DNA of 64,000 bases from an uncultured Spirochaetales bacterium (GTDB taxonomy: Bacteria > UBP6 > UBA1177): positions 372,001-436,000 of the forward strand of contig CACYHH010000002.1 of the NCBI GenBank assembly GCA_902774115.1. The letters run 5' to 3'. Both the position numbers and the translations under genes were made by a program. Below the pieces are notes generated by a model. That model saw nothing but the letters and a program-made list of their open reading frames with translations. It was not told the origin of the DNA and did no database searches. The first letter of the stretch is position 1; every line of letters begins with the position of its first letter. Below, in pieces: positions 12,432 through 21,624 of this stretch.

Positions 12432-14390
12432 ATGAAAAAAGTGTTTTTTTTGATGTTTGTTTTTATTTCGGCGTTTATGTTTGCGGGATGCGCGGCATCG
12501 GATGACGATGAAGAAGAGATTTCGCTTCCCGACAGCGACGGCGGAGAAATGATTTCGGACGGGGACGGTTCCGGAACAAACGATTCTGACAACGGGACAG
12601 GTTCTGATTCCGACAGTGTCGTGCCGGATGCCGATGCGGATACTGACGGCGGAAACAGTCAGGAGCAGCCGGATACCGATACAACGCCTGTTACAACAAA
12701 CTGCAACCCCGGGATGAAAGTTTGTGATGCAAGTGACCCGGGCAGCATTTTCCTATGCAAAGATGACGGATCGGGAGTCGAAACACCGGCAGTGGAAAAG
12801 TGTGCCGAAGGTTTGGTCTGCTCTTTCGGAAAGTGCGAAACTAAGGCGTGTGCTTCGGCCGGAAGCAGCTATTTGGGATGCGATTTCTACACGGCTAAAC
12901 TCTACAACGGCAGAAAAAGCGAAAAAATCACGAGCAAAGATTCTTTTTCGGTAGCTCTTGCCAACTCTCACCCGGCCGAAACCGCGACAATCGAATTTTT
13001 CAAGACTCTGGAAGACGGAAGCGAAGCGAAGATCGAGAGCTTTGAATACTGCTACAAAGTTACGAAATCGTTTCTGGGAAGCGAATATGACGACATGGAG
13101 TGCAAAAACTACGATTCCTCTTTCGTAATAACGGTAAATCCGCAGGAAACGATAGTCGTAACGCCGAAAAAAGAGGACAGGATGCTCATCGGTACGGCGG
13201 CAAGCTATCTCAGCTATCACATAAAATCGGATCTTCCGATAATCGTCTATCAGTTCAACCCGTTCTACAACCTTCATTCGAACGATGCTTCGCTTGTACT
13301 TCCTTCGACGAAGCTCGGTGCAGACTATATTATCGCGAGTTATCCCGACGAAACCGGCGTAGGCGGGGACGGTCCCGGCTATTTCACGATAATCGGCGCC
13401 TATGACATGCCTGTCGAACTTGAGATCACGCCTACTGCCGACATTGCGCCGAGCGGAAAGATACCCGGAACTTCGGCAGGTGTTCCGATGACTGTCGAAG
13501 TTGCGAAAGGAGAAGTTCTGAACATTGTTACGACGATGAACGCCGCTGATTTTACTGGAACGAAGATCACATGCAAAAATCCATATTCGAAGTGTGCTCC
13601 GGTCGCTGTTTTCGGCGGTCACGGCTGTGCCGATATCCCTAAGGACAGAGGCTACTGCGACCATCTTGAACACCAGCTTCTTCCTGTCAGCCGCTGGGGA
13701 ACGCGTTATGCCGTTGTCAAAACAAAACCGAGAAGTTACGCCCGTGATTTTGTCCGTGTCGTTGCGGCTAACGATGCGACAAATGTCTCGATAAAGATAA
13801 AGGATGAAGAATACACGAGCGGTACCGAAAAAAATATCACGCTCAATGCCGGTCAGTTCTATGAATACGAACTCAACTACATTGACGACGGCGGCAGCTG
13901 GTTCACTTCCGGAACATCGTTTATCGAAGCGGACAAGCCTGTGCAGGTAACTCAGTATTTAAGCGGTTCCGAGGATATCAGCTCCGATTGCCGCGACGAT
14001 TCTCCCGGTTCTTCGCACTCATACTGTTTCGGCGATCCGGCAATGACCATAATCCCGCCGGTAGAGCAGTTCAGAAACGAATACTACTTCTTTGCATACT
14101 CGGTCGAAGACACCGAAACAGACGGCGGAAATGCCAATTTCGTCGAAGTCATCACAGATCCGGGAGTCGAAATCACGCTTGACGGCGAAACCCCGACACC
14201 GGCAATGGACGGCGAGATGCAGGGCGCGGTCTACGGCAGCAACAAAGTTTACTACATTTTTGAACTTGATTCATGGTTCATGCGCCACCACCTGACATGC
14301 ACCGGCTCATGCGGAATACTTGTCTACGGCTGGGGAATGGACGTAAGCTATATGTATCCCGGCGGACTTGACCTTAAGATGCTGAAATAG
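12432..14390 (+). CDS. Surface lipoprotein with acidic spacer and IgGFc-binding-like domain
   Basis: The 652-residue protein has a lipoprotein signal (FISAFMFAGC, Cys at 20), then about 65 residues rich in Asp, Ser and Gly (SDGDGSGTNDSDNGTGSDSD) as a spacer. A small Cys-rich module follows (CNPGMKVCD, SIFLCKDDGSG, CAEGLVCSFGKCE). The remainder, starting near SSYLGCDFYTAKLYN, resembles the IgGFc-binding domain common in myxobacterial surface proteins, with repeated beta units (FSVALANSHPAETATIEFF, PIIVYQFNPFYNLHSNDASLVLP). It is monocistronic. The ligand is unknown; IgG-Fc binding is the family name, not a claim about this protein. Confidence 0.75.
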   Translation: MKKVFFLMFVFISAFMFAGCAASDDDEEEISLPDSDGGEMISDGDGSGTNDSDNGTGSDSDSVVPDADADTDGGNSQEQPDTDTTPVTTNCNPGMKVCDASDPGSIFLCKDDGSGVETPAVEKCAEGLVCSFGKCETKACASAGSSYLGCDFYTAKLYNGRKSEKITSKDSFSVALANSHPAETATIEFFKTLEDGSEAKIESFEYCYKVTKSFLGSEYDDMECKNYDSSFVITVNPQETIVVTPKKEDRMLIGTAASYLSYHIKSDLPIIVYQFNPFYNLHSNDASLVLPSTKLGADYIIASYPDETGVGGDGPGYFTIIGAYDMPVELEITPTADIAPSGKIPGTSAGVPMTVEVAKGEVLNIVTTMNAADFTGTKITCKNPYSKCAPVAVFGGHGCADIPKDRGYCDHLEHQLLPVSRWGTRYAVVKTKPRSYARDFVRVVAANDATNVSIKIKDEEYTSGTEKNITLNAGQFYEYELNYIDDGGSWFTSGTSFIEADKPVQVTQYLSGSEDISSDCRDDSPGSSHSYCFGDPAMTIIPPVEQFRNEYYFFAYSVEDTETDGGNANFVEVITDPGVEITLDGETPTPAMDGEMQGAVYGSNKVYYIFELDSWFMRHHLTCTGSCGILVYGWGMDVSYMYPGGLDLKMLK

Positions 14391-14516
14391 TTCCTGTGAA
14401 AATAATGATGTATATAAAATGCAATGAGGTTTCTGTTGAGCTTCTTTGTGTTAAAACGGTGATAAAAAAGTGTGTAATAGATTCGATGGAGAGCAAATTA
14501 TAACGGAGAATTAAAA

Positions 14517-15368
14517 ATGAAAAGAATGGTGATTTGTGTTGGTTTCATGTTTTGTTGCTCGCAACTTGTGGCGTTGGAGTGGTCTTCACTTTTTTCTGTG
14601 ATTCTGAATTGGAATCAAGCAATGGATTATTGCAAACAACTTAATGAAGGAGGTTATGATGACTGGCGGCTTCCAGATATTGACGAATTGAGAACACTTA
14701 TTCAAAATTGCCCGAACACTGCTCTGGGTGGAGAATGCAATGTTAGTGCAAAAAACAGTTGTTTGTCTAAAAAATGTTGGTATCCCAAAGGTTCGTGTTA
14801 TTGCATAAGGATACCAAACAATTATGGGCATTACAGCAATTTGGGGGATGATGATACAATAATTCTTTGGTCTTCATCATATGAGAGATATGAAAAGTGT
14901 GCATGGGGGGTATTTTTTGACGAAGGAGGAGTGGCTTGTATTCCTAAGTCAGATGGTTTAAAGGTTCGTTGTGTGAGAAGTGGCAACGGAAGGTACTCTG
15001 AACAATTTGTATATTCAAATTCAGGTGGCATTTATAAATCCAATGATTCTGAACCTACTAAAACTCGAATTCCAAATATAACTGTTACATTTGGACTTAA
15101 TGGAGAATGGACATTCTCTTTTAGCTCTAACGGAACATTTAGAAGTCGTGAATGGAGTGGATATCATGGTCGGTTCGATACACAATACATGAAAAATATA
15201 TCAACTTATAGCGGAACATATTACATAACGGAAGACTCTTCGGGATTCAAGACTATTTATTTACGTTATGGTAACGGGAACGAAAAAACTGCAATACTCA
15301 GTTATAATATTGGTAATGCCAGAGCAAAACTATCTTTTGATGGAAAAACTCATAGTCAAATTGATTAA
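14517..15368 (+). CDS. Exported DUF1566 (Lcl-type) domain protein
   Basis: The 283-residue protein has an N-terminal signal peptide (MVICVGFMFCCSQLVAL). A DUF1566/Lcl domain follows, with the family WRLP hallmark (LNWNQAMDYCKQLNEGGYDDWRLPDIDELRTLI), an eight-Cys insert at about 63-101 and the closing LKVRCVRSG. Residues 175-283 are beta-rich and unassigned (ITVTFGLNGEWTFSFSSNGTFRSR). Codon use is visibly more AT-rich than in the flanking lipoprotein genes, suggesting transfer or weaker selection. AACGGAG precedes the ATG. Degraded coding fragments lie just downstream. Confidence 0.75.
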   Translation: MKRMVICVGFMFCCSQLVALEWSSLFSVILNWNQAMDYCKQLNEGGYDDWRLPDIDELRTLIQNCPNTALGGECNVSAKNSCLSKKCWYPKGSCYCIRIPNNYGHYSNLGDDDTIILWSSSYERYEKCAWGVFFDEGGVACIPKSDGLKVRCVRSGNGRYSEQFVYSNSGGIYKSNDSEPTKTRIPNITVTFGLNGEWTFSFSSNGTFRSREWSGYHGRFDTQYMKNISTYSGTYYITEDSSGFKTIYLRYGNGNEKTAILSYNIGNARAKLSFDGKTHSQID

Positions 15369-15437
15369 TCTAATTCTGCCTTATTAGGTTGTGCAGCAAC
15401 GAACCTTTTTTCACTTCTTTAATGTGCTGAAAAAATA

Positions 15438-15601
15438 AGATTCTATATCATTAACTTTATCTATTCTTGCTTCTGGTGGAGATGGTAGTTTGTCAATGTT
15501 TGTTGATGACTATAAACATTAAAGGGAAAGCAGACTATACGGAAATAAAAAAAGCTCTTACAATGTCAGATGTGTCAGGAATCTTTAATAAAACTGTGTA
15601 A
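15438..15601 (+). pseudogene. Probable degraded coding fragment in an otherwise gene-free stretch
   Basis: The 368-bp gap (15369-15736) has no intact gene. One frame reads SILASGGDGSLSMFVDDYKH and stops at about 15523. A second, starting at ATG 15506, reads MTINIKGKADYTEIKKALT and ends TVSNGIF-like at TAA 15599-15601 (its last residues are SDVSGIFNKTV). The two could be pieces of one gene broken by a frameshift, but they are short and no family is recognised. The region beyond 15614 is the repeat array. Confidence 0.3.
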
Positions 15602-15614
15602 ATCCTTAAAACAC

Positions 15615-15729
15615 GGCGCAATCGTGAAAAACTGCCTCTGAAAATATGGCGCAAACGTGAAAATTTACTTGACAAAACATGGCGCAAACGTGAAAATAAT
15701 ACCGTAAATTAGTGGCGCAATCGTGAGGA
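15615..15729. repeat. 33-bp-period repeat array upstream of the first DUF4143 ATPase (4 copies)
   Basis: The 16-bp core GGCGCAA(A/T)CGTGAAAA starts at 15615, 15648, 15681 and 15714, exactly 33 bp apart, separated by three unrelated 17-bp spacers. In the fourth copy the terminal AAAA is changed so that GAGGA appears (15725-15729), 7 nt before the GTG start of the ATPase, where it can serve as Shine-Dalgarno. The core recurs exactly as the first unit of the array at 17121-17263. Confidence 0.9.
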
Positions 15730-15736
15730 TACAGCC

Positions 15737-17074
15737 GTGTTTGAAAGAAAAGCGTATAGCGAAATGCTTAAATGGAAAAGGGAATATGCACCCGATTATG
15801 CTCTGTTTCTGAAAGGTGCGAGACGCACAGGAAAGACGACTCTTGCCGAAAAATTCGGAAAAGAGGAATACCGTTCCTATATTCTGATCAGATTCGATCA
15901 GGTTGAAGAAGGTATCAAAAATCTGTTCGTAAACAGTCTCAGGGATCTTGATTCTTTTTTCAGCACTATTCAGTTCGCATACAATACAAGACTTTACAAA
16001 AGAAACTCTTTGATCATTTTGGATGAAATACAGCTTTTTCCGCCTGCTCGTCAGGCGCTGAAGACGCTGCTTGAGGACGGAAGATACGATTATCTTGAAA
16101 CGGGTTCTCTGGCTTCAATAAAGAAGAAAAGTGCGAATATACTGATTCCGTCGGAAGAATATACAGTTGAAGTTCTGCCGATGGATTATGAGGAATATCT
16201 CAAGGCAAATGGTAATGATTTTGTCATTCCTGTTCTTGCAGAGCATCTTTCGACATTAAAACCTATGGGAAGTCTGCACCAGCAAATTATGAAATCCTTC
16301 AGGGAATACATGCTTGTAGGTGGCATGCCGCAAGTCGTCAAAGCGTTTGTCGAAACAAAAGATTTCGGGAAGGTCGATTTTGCAAAACAGCAGATACTCA
16401 ACCTTTACCGGAACGATATGGAAGAGCAGGAAGAGGAAAATCCACGCTATGTCACCAATTTTTTTGAAAGGATTCCGTCTGAGCTCTCGAAACACGACAA
16501 ACGCTATATACTGACACATATTGAACCAAGTGCGAGACTGAGGAATTACCGACCGCCGATTTTATGGCTTGACGAAGCAATGATAATAAATATCGCGAGC
16601 AATGCGGATGATCCGAGCGCGGCTTTTAATCTTGCTGTTATCGATCCCTCTTTCAAATGTTACATGATGGACACCGGTCTGCTCGTAACACTTGCATACA
16701 AAGACCGTTTATATCTCGAAAACGAGCTTTACAAGGCGATACTTCTTGACAAACTGCATGTGAACGAAGGAATGATCGTCGAAAATATTGTTGCTCAGTG
16801 TTTGAGGGCGAACGGACACCGTGCGTATTTTTACAAAGAAACCGACAAAGAAACAAAAAAGACTAGTGTCGAAATTGATTTCCTGATACGCCGGCAGAAC
16901 AAGGTGATTCCGATCGAAGTTAAGTCTGGCGAAAACAAAAGTACTGCTTCGATCCTGAAACTTAAAGAGACTTTCGGCAAACGGATCGGGCAGGGCATTA
17001 TTCTGCATCACGGCGAAATCAAGAGCGAAGAAAATTTTCTCTGGCTGCCGTACTATATGGCTGCGGTATTGTGA
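15737..17074 (+). CDS. AAA-family ATPase with DUF4143 C-terminal domain (paralogue 1)
   Basis: The 445-residue protein has an N-terminal P-loop ATPase: KGARRTGKTTLAEKFG (Walker A, about residues 27-42) and SLIILDEIQLFPPARQALKTLL (Walker B/DE). LETGSLASIKKKSANILIPSEEYTVEVLPMDYEEYL follows. The C-terminal DUF4143 region ends with the nuclease-fold-like EIDFLIRRQNKVIPIEVKSGEN. This family is widespread and of unknown function; the E/D...EVKSG pattern recalls PD-(D/E)XK nucleases. It is clearly paralogous with the 445-residue protein at 17314. The start is GTG, with the Shine-Dalgarno inside the last upstream repeat. Confidence 0.88.
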   Translation: MFERKAYSEMLKWKREYAPDYALFLKGARRTGKTTLAEKFGKEEYRSYILIRFDQVEEGIKNLFVNSLRDLDSFFSTIQFAYNTRLYKRNSLIILDEIQLFPPARQALKTLLEDGRYDYLETGSLASIKKKSANILIPSEEYTVEVLPMDYEEYLKANGNDFVIPVLAEHLSTLKPMGSLHQQIMKSFREYMLVGGMPQVVKAFVETKDFGKVDFAKQQILNLYRNDMEEQEEENPRYVTNFFERIPSELSKHDKRYILTHIEPSARLRNYRPPILWLDEAMIINIASNADDPSAAFNLAVIDPSFKCYMMDTGLLVTLAYKDRLYLENELYKAILLDKLHVNEGMIVENIVAQCLRANGHRAYFYKETDKETKKTSVEIDFLIRRQNKVIPIEVKSGENKSTASILKLKETFGKRIGQGIILHHGEIKSEENFLWLPYYMAAVL

Positions 17075-17120
17075 TATGGAATATTTACGGCAAAATTTTT
17101 GGATAGATTAGTTGAGATCG

Positions 17121-17263
17121 GCGCAAACGTGAAAATCAGCGTTTTTTGAACCTGCTTTTTCGTGCAAAATCAGCATGGTTCAACCTGCTTTTTCGTGCAA
17201 AATCGGCGTCAGCCAACTTGCTTTTTCGTGAAAAATCGGCACTTCTTAACTTGCTTTTTCGTG
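17121..17263. repeat. 33-bp-period repeat array upstream of the second DUF4143 ATPase (5 copies)
   Basis: The CGTG core occurs at 17128, 17161, 17194, 17227 and 17260, exactly 33 bp apart. The first copy has the same core as the earlier array (GGCGCAAACGTGAAAAT). Copies 2-5 instead carry TGCTTTTTCGTG, most followed by (C/A)AAAATC(A/G)GC. The last copy overlaps a promoter (17251-17278), with CGTG inside the -35/-10 spacer. One minus-strand frame is open through copies 2-5 and reads an 11-residue repeat (ADFARKSRLNH-like) with no start codon. Confidence 0.9.
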
Positions 17264-17278
17264 ATTTTCAATTATTAT
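17251..17278 (+). promoter_or_regulatory. Promoter of the second DUF4143 ATPase, overlapping the last 33-bp repeat
   Basis: TTGCTT (17251-17256), a 16-nt spacer and TATTAT (17273-17278), 36 nt before the ATG. The -35 is part of the repeat, and its CGTG (17260-17263) lies in the spacer, so a factor bound to the repeat would cover the promoter. Confidence 0.6.
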
Positions 17279-17313
17279 GATGTTGATTTTATTAAGTTCT
17301 TTCGAGGCTTGGT

Positions 17314-18651
17314 ATGAAAAGAAAAATTTATCAGAAAATGCTTGAGTGGAAAACGAAGTCAGGCGGTTCTTCGGCTCTCCTTATTGACGGGGCTCGGCGT
17401 GTCGGAAAAAGTTATATCGCAAGTCTGTTCGCAAAACAGGAGTATAAAAGCTATATCATTATAGATTTTGGCAATGTGTCGCCGGAAATAACTTCACTTT
17501 TTGAAAACGAAAGCTCTAATCTCGACTTTTTTTTAGCAAAACTTTCATCTTTTTATTCTACAAAACTTTATGAAAGGGACTCTCTGATTGTTTTTGACGA
17601 GGTTCAGCAGTTTCCGAGAGCGCGCCAGCTGATAAAATATCTGGTTGCGGACGGGCGTTACGATTATCTGGAAACAGGTTCGCTGATCAGGCTGAAAAAG
17701 AACACCGAAAACATCATAATTCCTTCGGAAGAAGAGCATATCGAGATGTTTCCGCTTGATTTCGAGGAATTTCTCTGGGCCATGGGCGATGAGGCGACGG
17801 TTCCTTTAATCCGGCAGTGTTTTGAAGAAAAGAAACCGTTAGGACAGGCACTTCACAGAAAAATAATGAATGATTTCAGACAGTATGTCCTTGTTGGAGG
17901 AATGCCGCAATCGGTCCTTGCCTATCTCAAAGAAAAGGATTTTGCCGCAGCTGACGAAGCAAAAAGAAAGATTTTACGCCTTTACCGCGATGACATTTCC
18001 AAATTTGCGGCAGGTTACGAGGAAAAAGTTTACGCAGTTTTTGATGAGATTCCGGGGCAGCTTTCCAAAAAAGAGAAAAAATACACTCTTGCATCGATCG
18101 ACAAAAACGCCCGTTTCAGAAGCTACGAGGATTCTTTTATCTGGCTTAACGAAGCAATGGTTACGAATTCCTGCTACAATTCGACAGATCCCAACATCGG
18201 GCTTGCCATGACCTCGGAACACTCGACGCAGAAATGCTACATGGCTGACACAGGACTTCTTGTAACGCTAACTTTCATGGATAAATTCTACACCGCAAAC
18301 GAGCTCTACAAAGCGGTTCTCTTCGATAAAATCGATATCAACGAAGGAATGATAATGGAAAACATTGTGGCGCAGATGCTTCGCACAAACGGTCATAAAC
18401 TCTATTTTTACTCTCGCAGCGACAATCTTCATCGGGAAAACCACATCGAGATCGACTTTCTTATCGCAAACGGCAAAAAAATTTCTCCGATAGAAGTAAA
18501 ATCGGCTTCTTACCGTTCCCACGCATCACTTGACAAATTTTTGAGGAAATTCTCTGCAAAAACCGGCACTCCTTACATTCTTTACCCGAAAGATGTCGCC
18601 GAAAAAGACGGAATTCTTCACCTTCCGCTTTACATGGCGATGTGCCTGTAA
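17314..18651 (+). CDS. AAA-family ATPase with DUF4143 C-terminal domain (paralogue 2)
   Basis: The 445-residue protein is the same length as its neighbour and collinear with it. Walker A is DGARRVGKSYIASLFA and Walker B is SLIVFDEVQQFPRARQLIKYL. The motif LETGSLIRLKKNTENIIIPSEEEHIEMFPLDFEEFL closely matches the first paralogue. The C-terminal DUF4143 part contains YMADTGLLVTLTF and HIEIDFLIANGKKISPIEVKSAS. Tandem paralogues with homologous upstream repeats imply duplication of gene and control region together. The cellular role is unknown. Confidence 0.88.
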   Translation: MKRKIYQKMLEWKTKSGGSSALLIDGARRVGKSYIASLFAKQEYKSYIIIDFGNVSPEITSLFENESSNLDFFLAKLSSFYSTKLYERDSLIVFDEVQQFPRARQLIKYLVADGRYDYLETGSLIRLKKNTENIIIPSEEEHIEMFPLDFEEFLWAMGDEATVPLIRQCFEEKKPLGQALHRKIMNDFRQYVLVGGMPQSVLAYLKEKDFAAADEAKRKILRLYRDDISKFAAGYEEKVYAVFDEIPGQLSKKEKKYTLASIDKNARFRSYEDSFIWLNEAMVTNSCYNSTDPNIGLAMTSEHSTQKCYMADTGLLVTLTFMDKFYTANELYKAVLFDKIDINEGMIMENIVAQMLRTNGHKLYFYSRSDNLHRENHIEIDFLIANGKKISPIEVKSASYRSHASLDKFLRKFSAKTGTPYILYPKDVAEKDGILHLPLYMAMCL

Positions 18652-18692
18652 AAAAGCCGATTCAATTTCTGTCAGTTAGTTGTAAACATTTC

Positions 18693-18720
18693 TTTACTTT
18701 TACTCTCGCATCACTATAAT
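18693..18720 (+). promoter_or_regulatory. Candidate promoter for the large DUF1566 lipoprotein
   Basis: TTTACT, a 16-nt spacer and a consensus TATAAT, 37 nt before the ATG at 18757. Confidence 0.6.
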
Positions 18721-18756
18721 ATCACCGCTTTTGTTTAATTTTCGTGAGGTCCCGTC

Positions 18757-21624
18757 ATGAAAACTCTTTTTTCCATCATACTGATTTTCCTTTTTATTTC
18801 GTGCAGCGGCGGTTCAAAAGCGCCTGTTGACGAGGATTCGGCGGCGGTTCTGCCGGACGAAGATGAGGATATTCTTGAAGATGAAGATTTTGTCGAAGAC
18901 GACGATGACGAGCCTTACACAAAGCCTGACAAGGATTCGGACAAACCTGATAATGATGAGGATATCGAGCCGGTCTCCGATCCCTGCCACCCGAATTATT
19001 GCTGGGACAGGGGCGGAACGGGAGAGTGCTTTCCCAGTGACGACGAGTACGGCTATACTTGCGTGTGCCGTGACCACCGAACGTGGACCGGCACTTACTG
19101 CAGGGAGGATATCAACGAGGTCGAGTGTACCGGGCTTCCCGAACACGCGCACTGGAGTGTTTCCCCGATTTGTGAGCAGACATGGCGGGAAAGTTTGGAA
19201 GAGTGGTATCCATCTCCCGAAGCAAGATACGGCTGGTCTCAGAAAGCCGAATGTTACTTTTTATGTGATGAAAATTATTTCTGGAACGGTTCCGATTGCG
19301 TAAATCTGTGCGAAAGTGAACCGTGCAAGGATGTGCCGCATTCTGACGGAGTATGTTCGTCTGTCGGAGCGACGCTTTTTACCTGCGGTTGCGAGGACGG
19401 TTACTACTGGTGGGGAGAAAGGCGCGGCTGCACGACGCAGAAGCCGGCTCTCGGAAATGTCTGTTCGGGACAGAGCGAGTGTTACGACAATGCGAGTGAA
19501 ATCGAGTGCCCGCTTGATCCGGATGATGCTTTTTACGGTCAGGAAGCGCATTACGCAAAGCTCGGAACCTGCTCTCCGCTTGATATAACGGTCGATTCGT
19601 CAAATCCCGGCGAACCTCTCATCATAAACAGAAACACTGGGCTTATGTGGCAGCAGAAAATCACAGAGGAGAGTTATACATGGGAAAATGCGGTGTCGCA
19701 TTGCGAAGACTTGACTTATGCGGGTTATGACGACTGGCGCCTTCCTTCGGTCAAAGAACTGATGTCGATTATTATCAGCAGCGGTTATATGTTTGAGTAC
19801 AACATGACTTTCTTCAATTTCTTTCCCGAGCATGCGGATTATGCCGACCGGTTCCGTTTCTGGACGTCAGACTGGGCTGTTTATGCCTATGATTATGCGT
19901 GGTATCTGACATTTTATAACAACAAAATAGAGGCATATAATGCAACAGATACAAATTTTGCTATATGTGTCCGCGGCGAAAAACTGCCTGAAGCTGAATT
20001 TGAGGTCTCAGAGATAAACGGTAACGCAGTTGTGACCGATTCAACGACAGGGCTTATGTGGCAGCAGGTCCCCGGCAGGGCAACGGTGTGGAAGCAGGCT
20101 CTTTATTACTGCGAACACCTTGTTTATGCGGGATACAGCGACTGGAGACTTCCGAACAGGAGCGAGATCCTTTCGCTTATCAATTACGACAAGGCTTACC
20201 CTGCATCGGATTTTCCCGGAATATATTCGTCTTCTGATGTTTATTCTTCAACTACCGCTTTTTACGGTATAGGGGTGAAAGATATTATGACCGGAAGTGG
20301 TAATGTATTTATACCCTATGTAAGCTACGGATATGTGCTGGTCAGTTCCAAAGCCAATATGTACAGGTACTATGAAGATCCGGTTTATTGCGTCCGCTCT
20401 GATATCTGCCCGGATGGTCAGTTCCTGCGCGGCCTGGAATGCCTTGACGATCCGTGCAGTACGGCATCGTGCGAAGTTTCAAATTCGACCGGTGACTGTG
20501 TTCCGAAGACGGAAACAGATTACGAATGCAAATGTCTCGACGGATATTTCTGGAACGGATCGGAGTGTGTTGACCCGTGCGAAGCGAATCCGTGCTCGGG
20601 AGCAGCCAACGCAAAAGGTTACAGCTGCAAGGCCGTAAATTCAAGCATCTATTTATGCGACTGTGAGGAAGGATACGTCTGGAATAACGGCAAATGCGAC
20701 ACTTTCGCAACTGATGTGAAAACTGTAGGCAGCATCTGTACAGGTCAGCAGTGGTGCTATGATGACGACGGGGGAATAGAGTGCTCCGGCTCGAAGTCAA
20801 AGCCTTTTTCGGGGCAGGATGCATATTTTGCAGCAAGAGGCACATGTCTGAAGCAGGATTTTTCCGTCAAAACGGTCAACGGTCAGAATATTGTCGTTGA
20901 CAACAACACAAAGCTGGAGTGGCAGCAGGCAGCTCCGCAGAAGCAGTTCAACTGGTACGACGCCTACGCTTACTGCGACGAACTGGAATACGGCGGAAAA
21001 AGCGACTGGCGCCTTCCTGCCACGCATGAACTTCTTACCATAGCCGATATAAGCGGGATGACCGGAACATGGATGATGCTGAACAGGGATTATTTCACGG
21101 AAATTCCGGAAAATCCGACAGACGGCCGTATTTTCTGGGCGGACAACGCACAGCTTCTGGATTCAAGGGAAGGCTGGACGGTCTCATATCCTAAAAAAGA
21201 AGATCTTTATTTTGTCATGTGTGTCAGAGGCAAAACTCTTCCGAAAGCAAACCTTTCTATTGTAAAGATAAAGAAGGTCGAAGTCATCAAAGACTCAACC
21301 ACAGGGCTCACCTGGGCAGATAGAAATTTTTCAACGGAAAAGTGGGAAGATGCCCTTGCTTACTGCATGAAACTGGATTACGCAGGGTACAACAATTGGA
21401 GACTTCCGAACAAAAACGAACTCGCCTCGCTTATCGGTTTTGACGAAAGATCCGTTCCCGGTTTTGACGGAAATTCGTGGTCTTCAACCACATATCAGTA
21501 CCGTAGCGAGTATGTTATCGATGTTTCTCCGAGCGGCAGCTTCGATTACAGCCTGAAAAATTGGGATAACTATCAGGGTTCAGGAATGTCAAAATCAGTC
21601 ATCTGTGTCGGAAATTTTGATTAA
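18757..21624 (+). CDS. Large surface lipoprotein: acidic spacer, EGF-like Cys modules and four DUF1566 domains
   Basis: The 955-residue protein has a lipoprotein signal (IFLFISC, Cys at 16) and an Asp/Glu/Pro-rich spacer (residues about 22-70). EGF-like modules occur near 75-110 and 550-640 (CHPNYCWDRGGTGECFP, CEVSNSTGDCVPKTETDYECKCLDGYFWNG). Two pairs of DUF1566/Lcl domains follow, each marked by TGLMWQQ-type and DWRLP segments: NTGLMWQQKITEESYTWENA, TTGLMWQQVPGRATVW, NTKLEWQQAAPQKQFNW and TTGLTWADRNFSTEKW. The second half is an internal duplication of the first. The convergent gene dgt overlaps its stop by four bases. It is probably surface exposed; its binding partner is unknown. Confidence 0.85.
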   Translation: MKTLFSIILIFLFISCSGGSKAPVDEDSAAVLPDEDEDILEDEDFVEDDDDEPYTKPDKDSDKPDNDEDIEPVSDPCHPNYCWDRGGTGECFPSDDEYGYTCVCRDHRTWTGTYCREDINEVECTGLPEHAHWSVSPICEQTWRESLEEWYPSPEARYGWSQKAECYFLCDENYFWNGSDCVNLCESEPCKDVPHSDGVCSSVGATLFTCGCEDGYYWWGERRGCTTQKPALGNVCSGQSECYDNASEIECPLDPDDAFYGQEAHYAKLGTCSPLDITVDSSNPGEPLIINRNTGLMWQQKITEESYTWENAVSHCEDLTYAGYDDWRLPSVKELMSIIISSGYMFEYNMTFFNFFPEHADYADRFRFWTSDWAVYAYDYAWYLTFYNNKIEAYNATDTNFAICVRGEKLPEAEFEVSEINGNAVVTDSTTGLMWQQVPGRATVWKQALYYCEHLVYAGYSDWRLPNRSEILSLINYDKAYPASDFPGIYSSSDVYSSTTAFYGIGVKDIMTGSGNVFIPYVSYGYVLVSSKANMYRYYEDPVYCVRSDICPDGQFLRGLECLDDPCSTASCEVSNSTGDCVPKTETDYECKCLDGYFWNGSECVDPCEANPCSGAANAKGYSCKAVNSSIYLCDCEEGYVWNNGKCDTFATDVKTVGSICTGQQWCYDDDGGIECSGSKSKPFSGQDAYFAARGTCLKQDFSVKTVNGQNIVVDNNTKLEWQQAAPQKQFNWYDAYAYCDELEYGGKSDWRLPATHELLTIADISGMTGTWMMLNRDYFTEIPENPTDGRIFWADNAQLLDSREGWTVSYPKKEDLYFVMCVRGKTLPKANLSIVKIKKVEVIKDSTTGLTWADRNFSTEKWEDALAYCMKLDYAGYNNWRLPNKNELASLIGFDERSVPGFDGNSWSSTTYQYRSEYVIDVSPSGSFDYSLKNWDNYQGSGMSKSVICVGNFD

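Follow-up and report, generated by a model that had tools for sequence, protein, structure and literature searches.

PDC-S01 is a candidate defence system described as ranking fourth in abundance among those of prokaryotes; its copies number tens of thousands, and no mechanism is given for it (PMC12988326). A different element of phage defence islands is RptR, a locus-encoded repressor that acts through three direct repeats at the promoter of such an island (PMC12255303). The DNA described here brings together features reminiscent of both, namely PDC-S01 genes and arrays of direct repeats placed immediately upstream of them. No description of arrays before PDC-S01 ATPases was found in the searchable literature, a scope outside which preprints and most subscription papers fall.

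The two ATPases and their arrays

The window, which is the whole 64 kb stretch of DNA that was analysed, carries two ATPase genes within a hypervariable region, each preceded by regularly spaced repeats. The features are listed below, one per line, with the source in brackets where it is other than the sequence itself.

14391-21620, no strand: hypervariable stretch holding both array and ATPase units (comparison with relatives)
15615-15626, + strand: array 1, unit 1, core GGCGCAATCGTG
15648-15659, + strand: array 1, unit 2, core GGCGCAAACGTG
15669-15674, + strand: consensus TTGACA, a putative -35 of array 1, between units 2 and 3, with no clear -10
15681-15692, + strand: array 1, unit 3, core GGCGCAAACGTG
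15714-15725, + strand: array 1, unit 4, core GGCGCAATCGTG, continuing into the Shine-Dalgarno
15724-15728, + strand: GAGGA, likely Shine-Dalgarno of ATPase A
15737-17074, + strand: ATPase A, 445 aa, AAA_14 and DUF4143, PADLOC PDC-S01 (Pfam, PADLOC)
17120-17131, + strand: array-1-type unit GGCGCAAACGTG heading array 2
17149-17164, + strand: array 2 unit AACCTGCTTTTTCGTG
17182-17197, + strand: array 2 unit AACCTGCTTTTTCGTG
17215-17230, + strand: array 2 unit AACTTGCTTTTTCGTG
17248-17263, + strand: array 2 last unit AACTTGCTTTTTCGTG, containing a -35-like TTGCTT
17273-17278, + strand: putative -10-like TATTAT, 16 nt after TTGCTT (17251-17256)
17314-18651, + strand: ATPase B, 445 aa, AAA_14 and DUF4143, PADLOC PDC-S01; AlphaFold2 mean pLDDT 89.6 (Pfam, PADLOC, model)

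The CGTG cores of array 1 (15623, 15656, 15689, 15722) and of array 2 (17128, 17161, 17194, 17227, 17260) advance by 33 bp at every step, which confirms the exact stepping reported in a preliminary description of this DNA. Array 1 is composed of the units GGCGCAATCGTGA, GGCGCAAACGTGA, GGCGCAAACGTGA and GGCGCAATCGTGA beginning at 15615, 15648, 15681 and 15714 (spacing 33, 33, 33), for an overall pattern of four times GGCGCAAWCGTGA. Array 2 opens with a single unit of the array 1 type, GGCGCAAACGTGAAAA at 17120, as had been recognised at the outset, and continues with four units AACYTGCTTTTTCGTG at 17149, 17182, 17215 and 17248 (spacing 33). The last unit of array 1 does reach the Shine-Dalgarno GAGGA (15724-15728), upstream of the GTG start codon at 15737. 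The further proposal that the last unit of array 2 forms a promoter is plausible, from the combination of TTGCTT, a 16-nt spacer and TATTAT, with a weak -35. Tandem Repeats Finder detects only two arrays of period 33 in the whole window, arrays 1 and 2. A tandem repeat of another kind, of about 8-14 bp around CGTCACG, is found at 2857-2980.

The array score compares three 12-mers in the 200 nt upstream of a gene, placed at two spacings that are nearly equal and lie within 25-45; its maximum is 24. Both the threshold (21 of 24) and the region (200 nt) were set after inspection of the window and of the genus. Arrays 1 and 2 score 23 and 24 out of 24, and 0 of 700 dinucleotide-preserving shuffles reach 21.

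ATPases A and B share 47% identity. Their Pfam matches are AAA_14, DUF4143 and a weak AAA_22, and the PDC-S01 profiles of PADLOC match both proteins over their full length (E 2.7e-97 for ATPase A and 7.8e-112 for ATPase B). The same models also match the scanned relatives, those with arrays as well as those without. The Walker A (GxxxxGK) and Walker B (DE) motifs are invariant in 29 diverse members, together with E349, E379, E394 and K396, while D381 is nearly so; E349, E379xD381 and E394xK396 are the catalytic residues of the PD-(D/E)XK domain. The PDC-S01 classification suggests an antiviral nuclease. A search of PDB sequences with the ATPases gave no match. Hits of the ATPase B model in a Foldseek search of the PDB include Apaf-1, Orc1/Cdc6 of archaea bound to origin DNA, MuB filaments on DNA and VC1899, with E values of 1e-5 to 1e-3 but low whole-chain TM-scores (0.18-0.40). 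The middle domain folded alone is modelled with a mean pLDDT of 88.7 and hits mostly winged-helix proteins, none of them singly below E 0.3. Judging from these models, DNA binding by the PDC-S01 ATPase is plausible.

Phased arrays across the ATPase family

Clustering of the genus proteins at 85% identity yielded 35 ATPase clusters, among which some kinship remains. Arrays scoring at least 21 precede 29 of them, with best periods of 33 (22 clusters), 32 (6) and 34 (1), against 0 of 700 shuffles. Control genes from the same loci reach this score in 8 cases out of 317, several of which are ATPase arrays on the opposite strand. When controls sharing 20-mers common to ATPase upstream regions are removed, 2 of 274 remain. 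One (L157) is apparently a simple repeat, and in the other (L206) the array precedes a gene for an Lcl_C lipoprotein. The genus ATPase upstream regions show autocorrelation maxima at periods 33 (z = 22.3) and 66 (z = 18.4). The controls give a comb of multiples of three, expected beside coding sequence, with 21 strongest and 33 at z 5.8, and they have no period where many genes score 12 of 14.

Outside the genus, 61 ATPase genes (G015-G282) were counted unclustered; many of the genomes compared here are apparently draft assemblies. Arrays scoring at least 21 are present in 24 of the 61, against 0 of 1220 shuffles, and autocorrelation gives z = 22.1 at 33. At a score of at least 20 the periods are 33 (17 genes), 32 (8) and 34 (2). 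A collection scan with alignment A3, the pan-family alignment A1 being too diverse for it, gave 80 further loci, mainly of Clostridia and Bacteroidia but also of other bacteria and of the archaeon Methanocalculus. Their peaks at 33 (z 8.7) and 32 (z 7.8) come mostly from paired units: three units are seen in 5%, and the others show two units, an inverted repeat or no visible repeat. A plasmid of the cultured Segatella copri DSM 18205, whose homologue is WP_006847938.1, carries three perfect 12-mers at 33 (score 24/24), and weaker arrays occur in plasmids of Glaesserella parasuis, Vibrio coralliilyticus, Acinetobacter towneri and Parabacteroides distasonis. The period of about 33 bp is found again in Pseudomonadota, Bacteroidota and one archaeon. 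The preliminary description had proposed autocorrelation at 33 bp upstream of related DUF4143 ATPases as a check, and had named relatives without phased repeats as the outcome that would speak against it. That outcome was not observed: the phased arrays, with a conserved period of about 33 bp, are general in the family and linked to its genes.

The 53 arrays scoring at least 21 have three units in 40 cases and four in 13, counts that are a lower bound given the 200 nt scanned and the divergent units missed. Their units are direct repeats of a 12-16 bp word, many of them AT-rich, and some last units contain a -35-like TTG word. The gaps between units are 31 (2), 32 (22), 33 (88) or 34 bp (7), that is exactly 33 in 88 of 119. 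The last unit ends 5-98 nt from the start codon, with a median of 38. Promoters are predicted in 36 of the 53 arrays, 28 of them overlapping a unit, though these are weak predictions made without a control set and hence do not count as evidence. One ATPase gene of the genome to which the window belongs is truncated and still has a three-unit array upstream (L061, G000:C13:17500-20759).

The period changes with the protein subfamily. A sister DUF4143 clade, the L054 type (L054:678-1952, reverse strand), has arrays at exactly 23 bp with differing, clade-specific words; 6 of its 9 clusters at 85% identity score at least 21 at period 23, and 23 is the best period in 8 of 9. These arrays (L289-L312) are present both within the genus and in two further families, with a member in the window's own genome at G000:C4:25477-26751. 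In a tree of 103 proteins the L054 type comes out as a single clade (support 100%). Among the DUF4143 genes of a third group, the L051 type (L313-L342), 29 upstream regions were scored and none carries an array, the best score being 18/24; a few present, by eye, possible inverted repeats near the promoter. The difference between 23 and 33 bp is about one turn of DNA.

The repeat word, unlike the period, changes fast and is nearly private to its genes, a privacy that rests on four words checked genome-wide. GGCGCAAWCGTGAAAA has 4 exact sites in the 2.51 Mb of its own genome, all 4 in the window arrays. All 6 sites of AAATCKYGATTTGGTG fall in arrays belonging to its two genes, and GGAGATTTTGTGA has 4 sites, of which 3 are in its own array. 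Across 15 genomes of the genus, CTTGCTTTTTCGTG has 25 exact sites and its reversed pattern none; the sites that were placed fall in ATPase-B arrays or orphan copies, and one further site is at G009:C69. Some ten distinct words share one spacing in the window's genome. Proteins that are more than about 80% identical have similar words, and those less than about 60% identical have words with essentially no resemblance; Mantel tests of protein-domain against repeat-word divergence gave correlations of 0.03-0.10, no domain or segment tracking the word. A constant period, a changing word and a period that depends on the subfamily together point to the encoded protein as the likely ruler of the array, as far as can be read from sequence comparison.

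Two observations concern the distribution of array types. Three GCCGATTTTTTGACATAT units of another type lie directly before an ATPase-B array (L069:8619-8885), and therefore arrays of different kinds can be stacked. ATPases very close to A and B, with similar words, are present in genome G118 (L259, L262), which by kinship lies outside the phylum of the window; these close copies reflect either transfer or contamination.

A hypervariable locus with orphan arrays

A lipoprotein gene, whose end is at 14390, and a dGTPase-like gene, whose end is at 21621, frame the two array and ATPase units of the window. These flanks are kept in relatives, and the interior varies (L064-L070), holding differing combinations of Lcl_C lipoproteins and ATPase units; the two genes scanned next to the window ATPases code for Lcl_C proteins. 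ATPase B and its array are found in at least four genomic contexts, with homology that starts inside the array and that in G011 stops at the stop codon. ATPase A has its own unit type on both sides. Orphan units of both types, with no ATPase, are located at gene junctions in G002, G006, G013 and G014, some of them directly before Lcl_C genes (L064:4871; L065:10893; L066:9422, 10495 and 12680; L067:12828; L210 near 3050), and two orphan A-type units of G014 (L066:12680-12728) directly abut the conserved right flank. These orphans would be explained if a gene lying between two copies had been deleted, or if the repeats had recombined. Boundaries read by eye and with blastn displayed neither terminal inverted repeats nor target-site duplications.

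Two claims of the preliminary description fare less well at this locus. Gene and repeats had been thought to have duplicated together, which is unsupported because an array-1-type unit heads ATPase B in G013 (L067), at a site from which ATPase A is absent; the ATPases are moreover only 47% identical and their unit words differ. The alternative of dispersed repeats unrelated to the ATPases, which it had also raised, is excluded in the window's own genome for the exact words checked, but orphan copies exist in relatives at this very locus.

Arrays are also found next to lipoprotein genes elsewhere: one with a 32-bp period precedes an Lcl_C lipoprotein gene (L206:4960-5685), and another lies between divergent ATPase and Lcl_C genes (L178:2817-3011). 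Lcl_C lipoproteins may share the proposed operator of the ATPase.

Function of the arrays and comparison with known systems

We favour, as a probable reading with real room for others, that each array is a cis-acting operator of the gene that follows and is bound by the cognate ATPase in an autoregulatory manner. In the preliminary description the arrays were seen as phased operators for cooperative, perhaps autoregulatory binding. The gene-linked arrays behind this idea proved general, while binding, cooperativity and autoregulation are the best-fitting interpretation of sequence patterns. The mode of action has a precedent, since RptR represses through direct repeats (PMC12255303). The bound protein would combine an AAA+ domain, a winged-helix-like middle domain and a PD-(D/E)XK nuclease domain. 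Several copies would sit next to one another on the units, each turned by the same angle relative to the last, building a short protein helix over the promoter and the ribosome-binding region, and the ATPase on its array would keep expression of its own gene low, its nuclease being possibly toxic. The geometry of the protein assembly would set the period and fast-evolving recognition residues the word; divergent words would let many paralogues share a genome and not interfere with one another. Infection, ATP state or titration could then free the protein and so switch on the putatively antiviral nuclease. In a further reading, which we hold only tentatively and rate as rather unlikely, the array is a functional component of a new class of sequence-addressed immune ATPases: each PDC-S01 protein would form a helix on its near-private array, which would be the off-state of the nuclease, and a word that changes fast at constant period would keep a dozen or more paralogues orthogonal in a cell.

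The array could instead be a docking or licensing element of immunity, on which the ATPase-nuclease is parked inactive until freed by infection, control of transcription being secondary. The presence of a STAND/ORC-like AAA+ and a nuclease in one chain, the near-private words, the PDC-S01 classification and the fact that a recognisable promoter is not always under the array all agree with such a depot. We nevertheless consider it unlikely, since a pure depot has no need to lie directly before the start codon of the ATPase gene and since RptR, in a defence island, simply represses through direct repeats (PMC12255303).

The repeats could also be sites of recombination or mobility, the array marking the end of a cassette moved by homologous recombination or by nuclease action. 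The four or more contexts of ATPase B, with homology beginning inside its array, the copies of its own unit on both sides of ATPase A and the orphan A-type units against the right flank of G014 fit this scenario. A fixed phase of 33 or 23 bp is however superfluous for recombination, the proximity to start codons is left unexplained, and the junctions read have no target-site duplication or terminal inverted repeat, so that this too seems improbable.

Repeats of type III toxin-antitoxin systems, about 35 nt long in the known cases, act as RNA that inhibits the product of the following gene. The resemblance to tandem repeats of similar length directly before a potentially toxic gene is evident, yet we give an RNA role of the arrays very little credence. 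The promoter predicted at the last unit of array 2 would leave most units untranscribed from it, and short words with a variable spacer at constant spacing fit phasing on DNA. Moreover, the protein is not of the ToxN, CptN or TenpN type, its Pfam matches being those given above, and an Rfam search of positions 14000-19000 gave no match to a repeat RNA or to any other family at E<=1. Binding by a host factor, either a nucleoid protein or an activator, would account for the AT-rich units and the TTG word of some last units, but it is most improbable given about ten words at the same period in one genome and a period that shifts with the protein subfamily, which a shared factor does not explain.

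Two other identities were rejected. The arrays are not CRISPR arrays: their units are 12-16 bp long, the array-1 spacers are near-identical in G000, G002 and G006, and the neighbours scanned are Lcl_C rather than cas genes. Nor do they appear to encode an 11-codon peptide repeat (33 = 3 x 11), for in-frame stretches in both arrays hit stop codons and the 23-bp arrays do not fit, as judged by eye.

The autoregulatory reading, if correct, gives the arrays a predictive value: the conserved, near-private cis element, whose period goes with the subfamily, would predict for each protein its DNA target, the spacing of its copies and its autoregulation, and is thereby a direct handle on the widespread PDC-S01. 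A constant period combined with a quickly changing word would provide a natural collection of numerous mutually orthogonal DNA-binding specificities.

As in ToxIN-like systems, a single gene directly follows a short tandem array, whereas the protein is unrelated and array 2 is probably mostly upstream of its promoter. Orc1/Cdc6 and other AAA+ origin-binding proteins would share, according to the structural matches, an AAA+ domain plus a winged helix reading repeated DNA words; the TM-scores are low, however, and here a nuclease domain is fused and there is no sign of a replication origin. With PDC-S01 the likeness is in the protein itself, the window ATPases being likewise an ATPase fused to a PD-(D/E)XK domain. 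The available part of its description mentions no cis element (PADLOC; PMC12988326), whereas here arrays precede the genes. RptR is a separate 9-kDa repressor that recognises 9-bp repeats close together with the one word TAGCTA (PMC12255303). The 53 arrays have in common with it direct repeats immediately upstream, here of the ATPase's own gene, and differ in that the only linked gene is the ATPase-nuclease, units are spaced at 33 (or 23) bp and words vary among genes.
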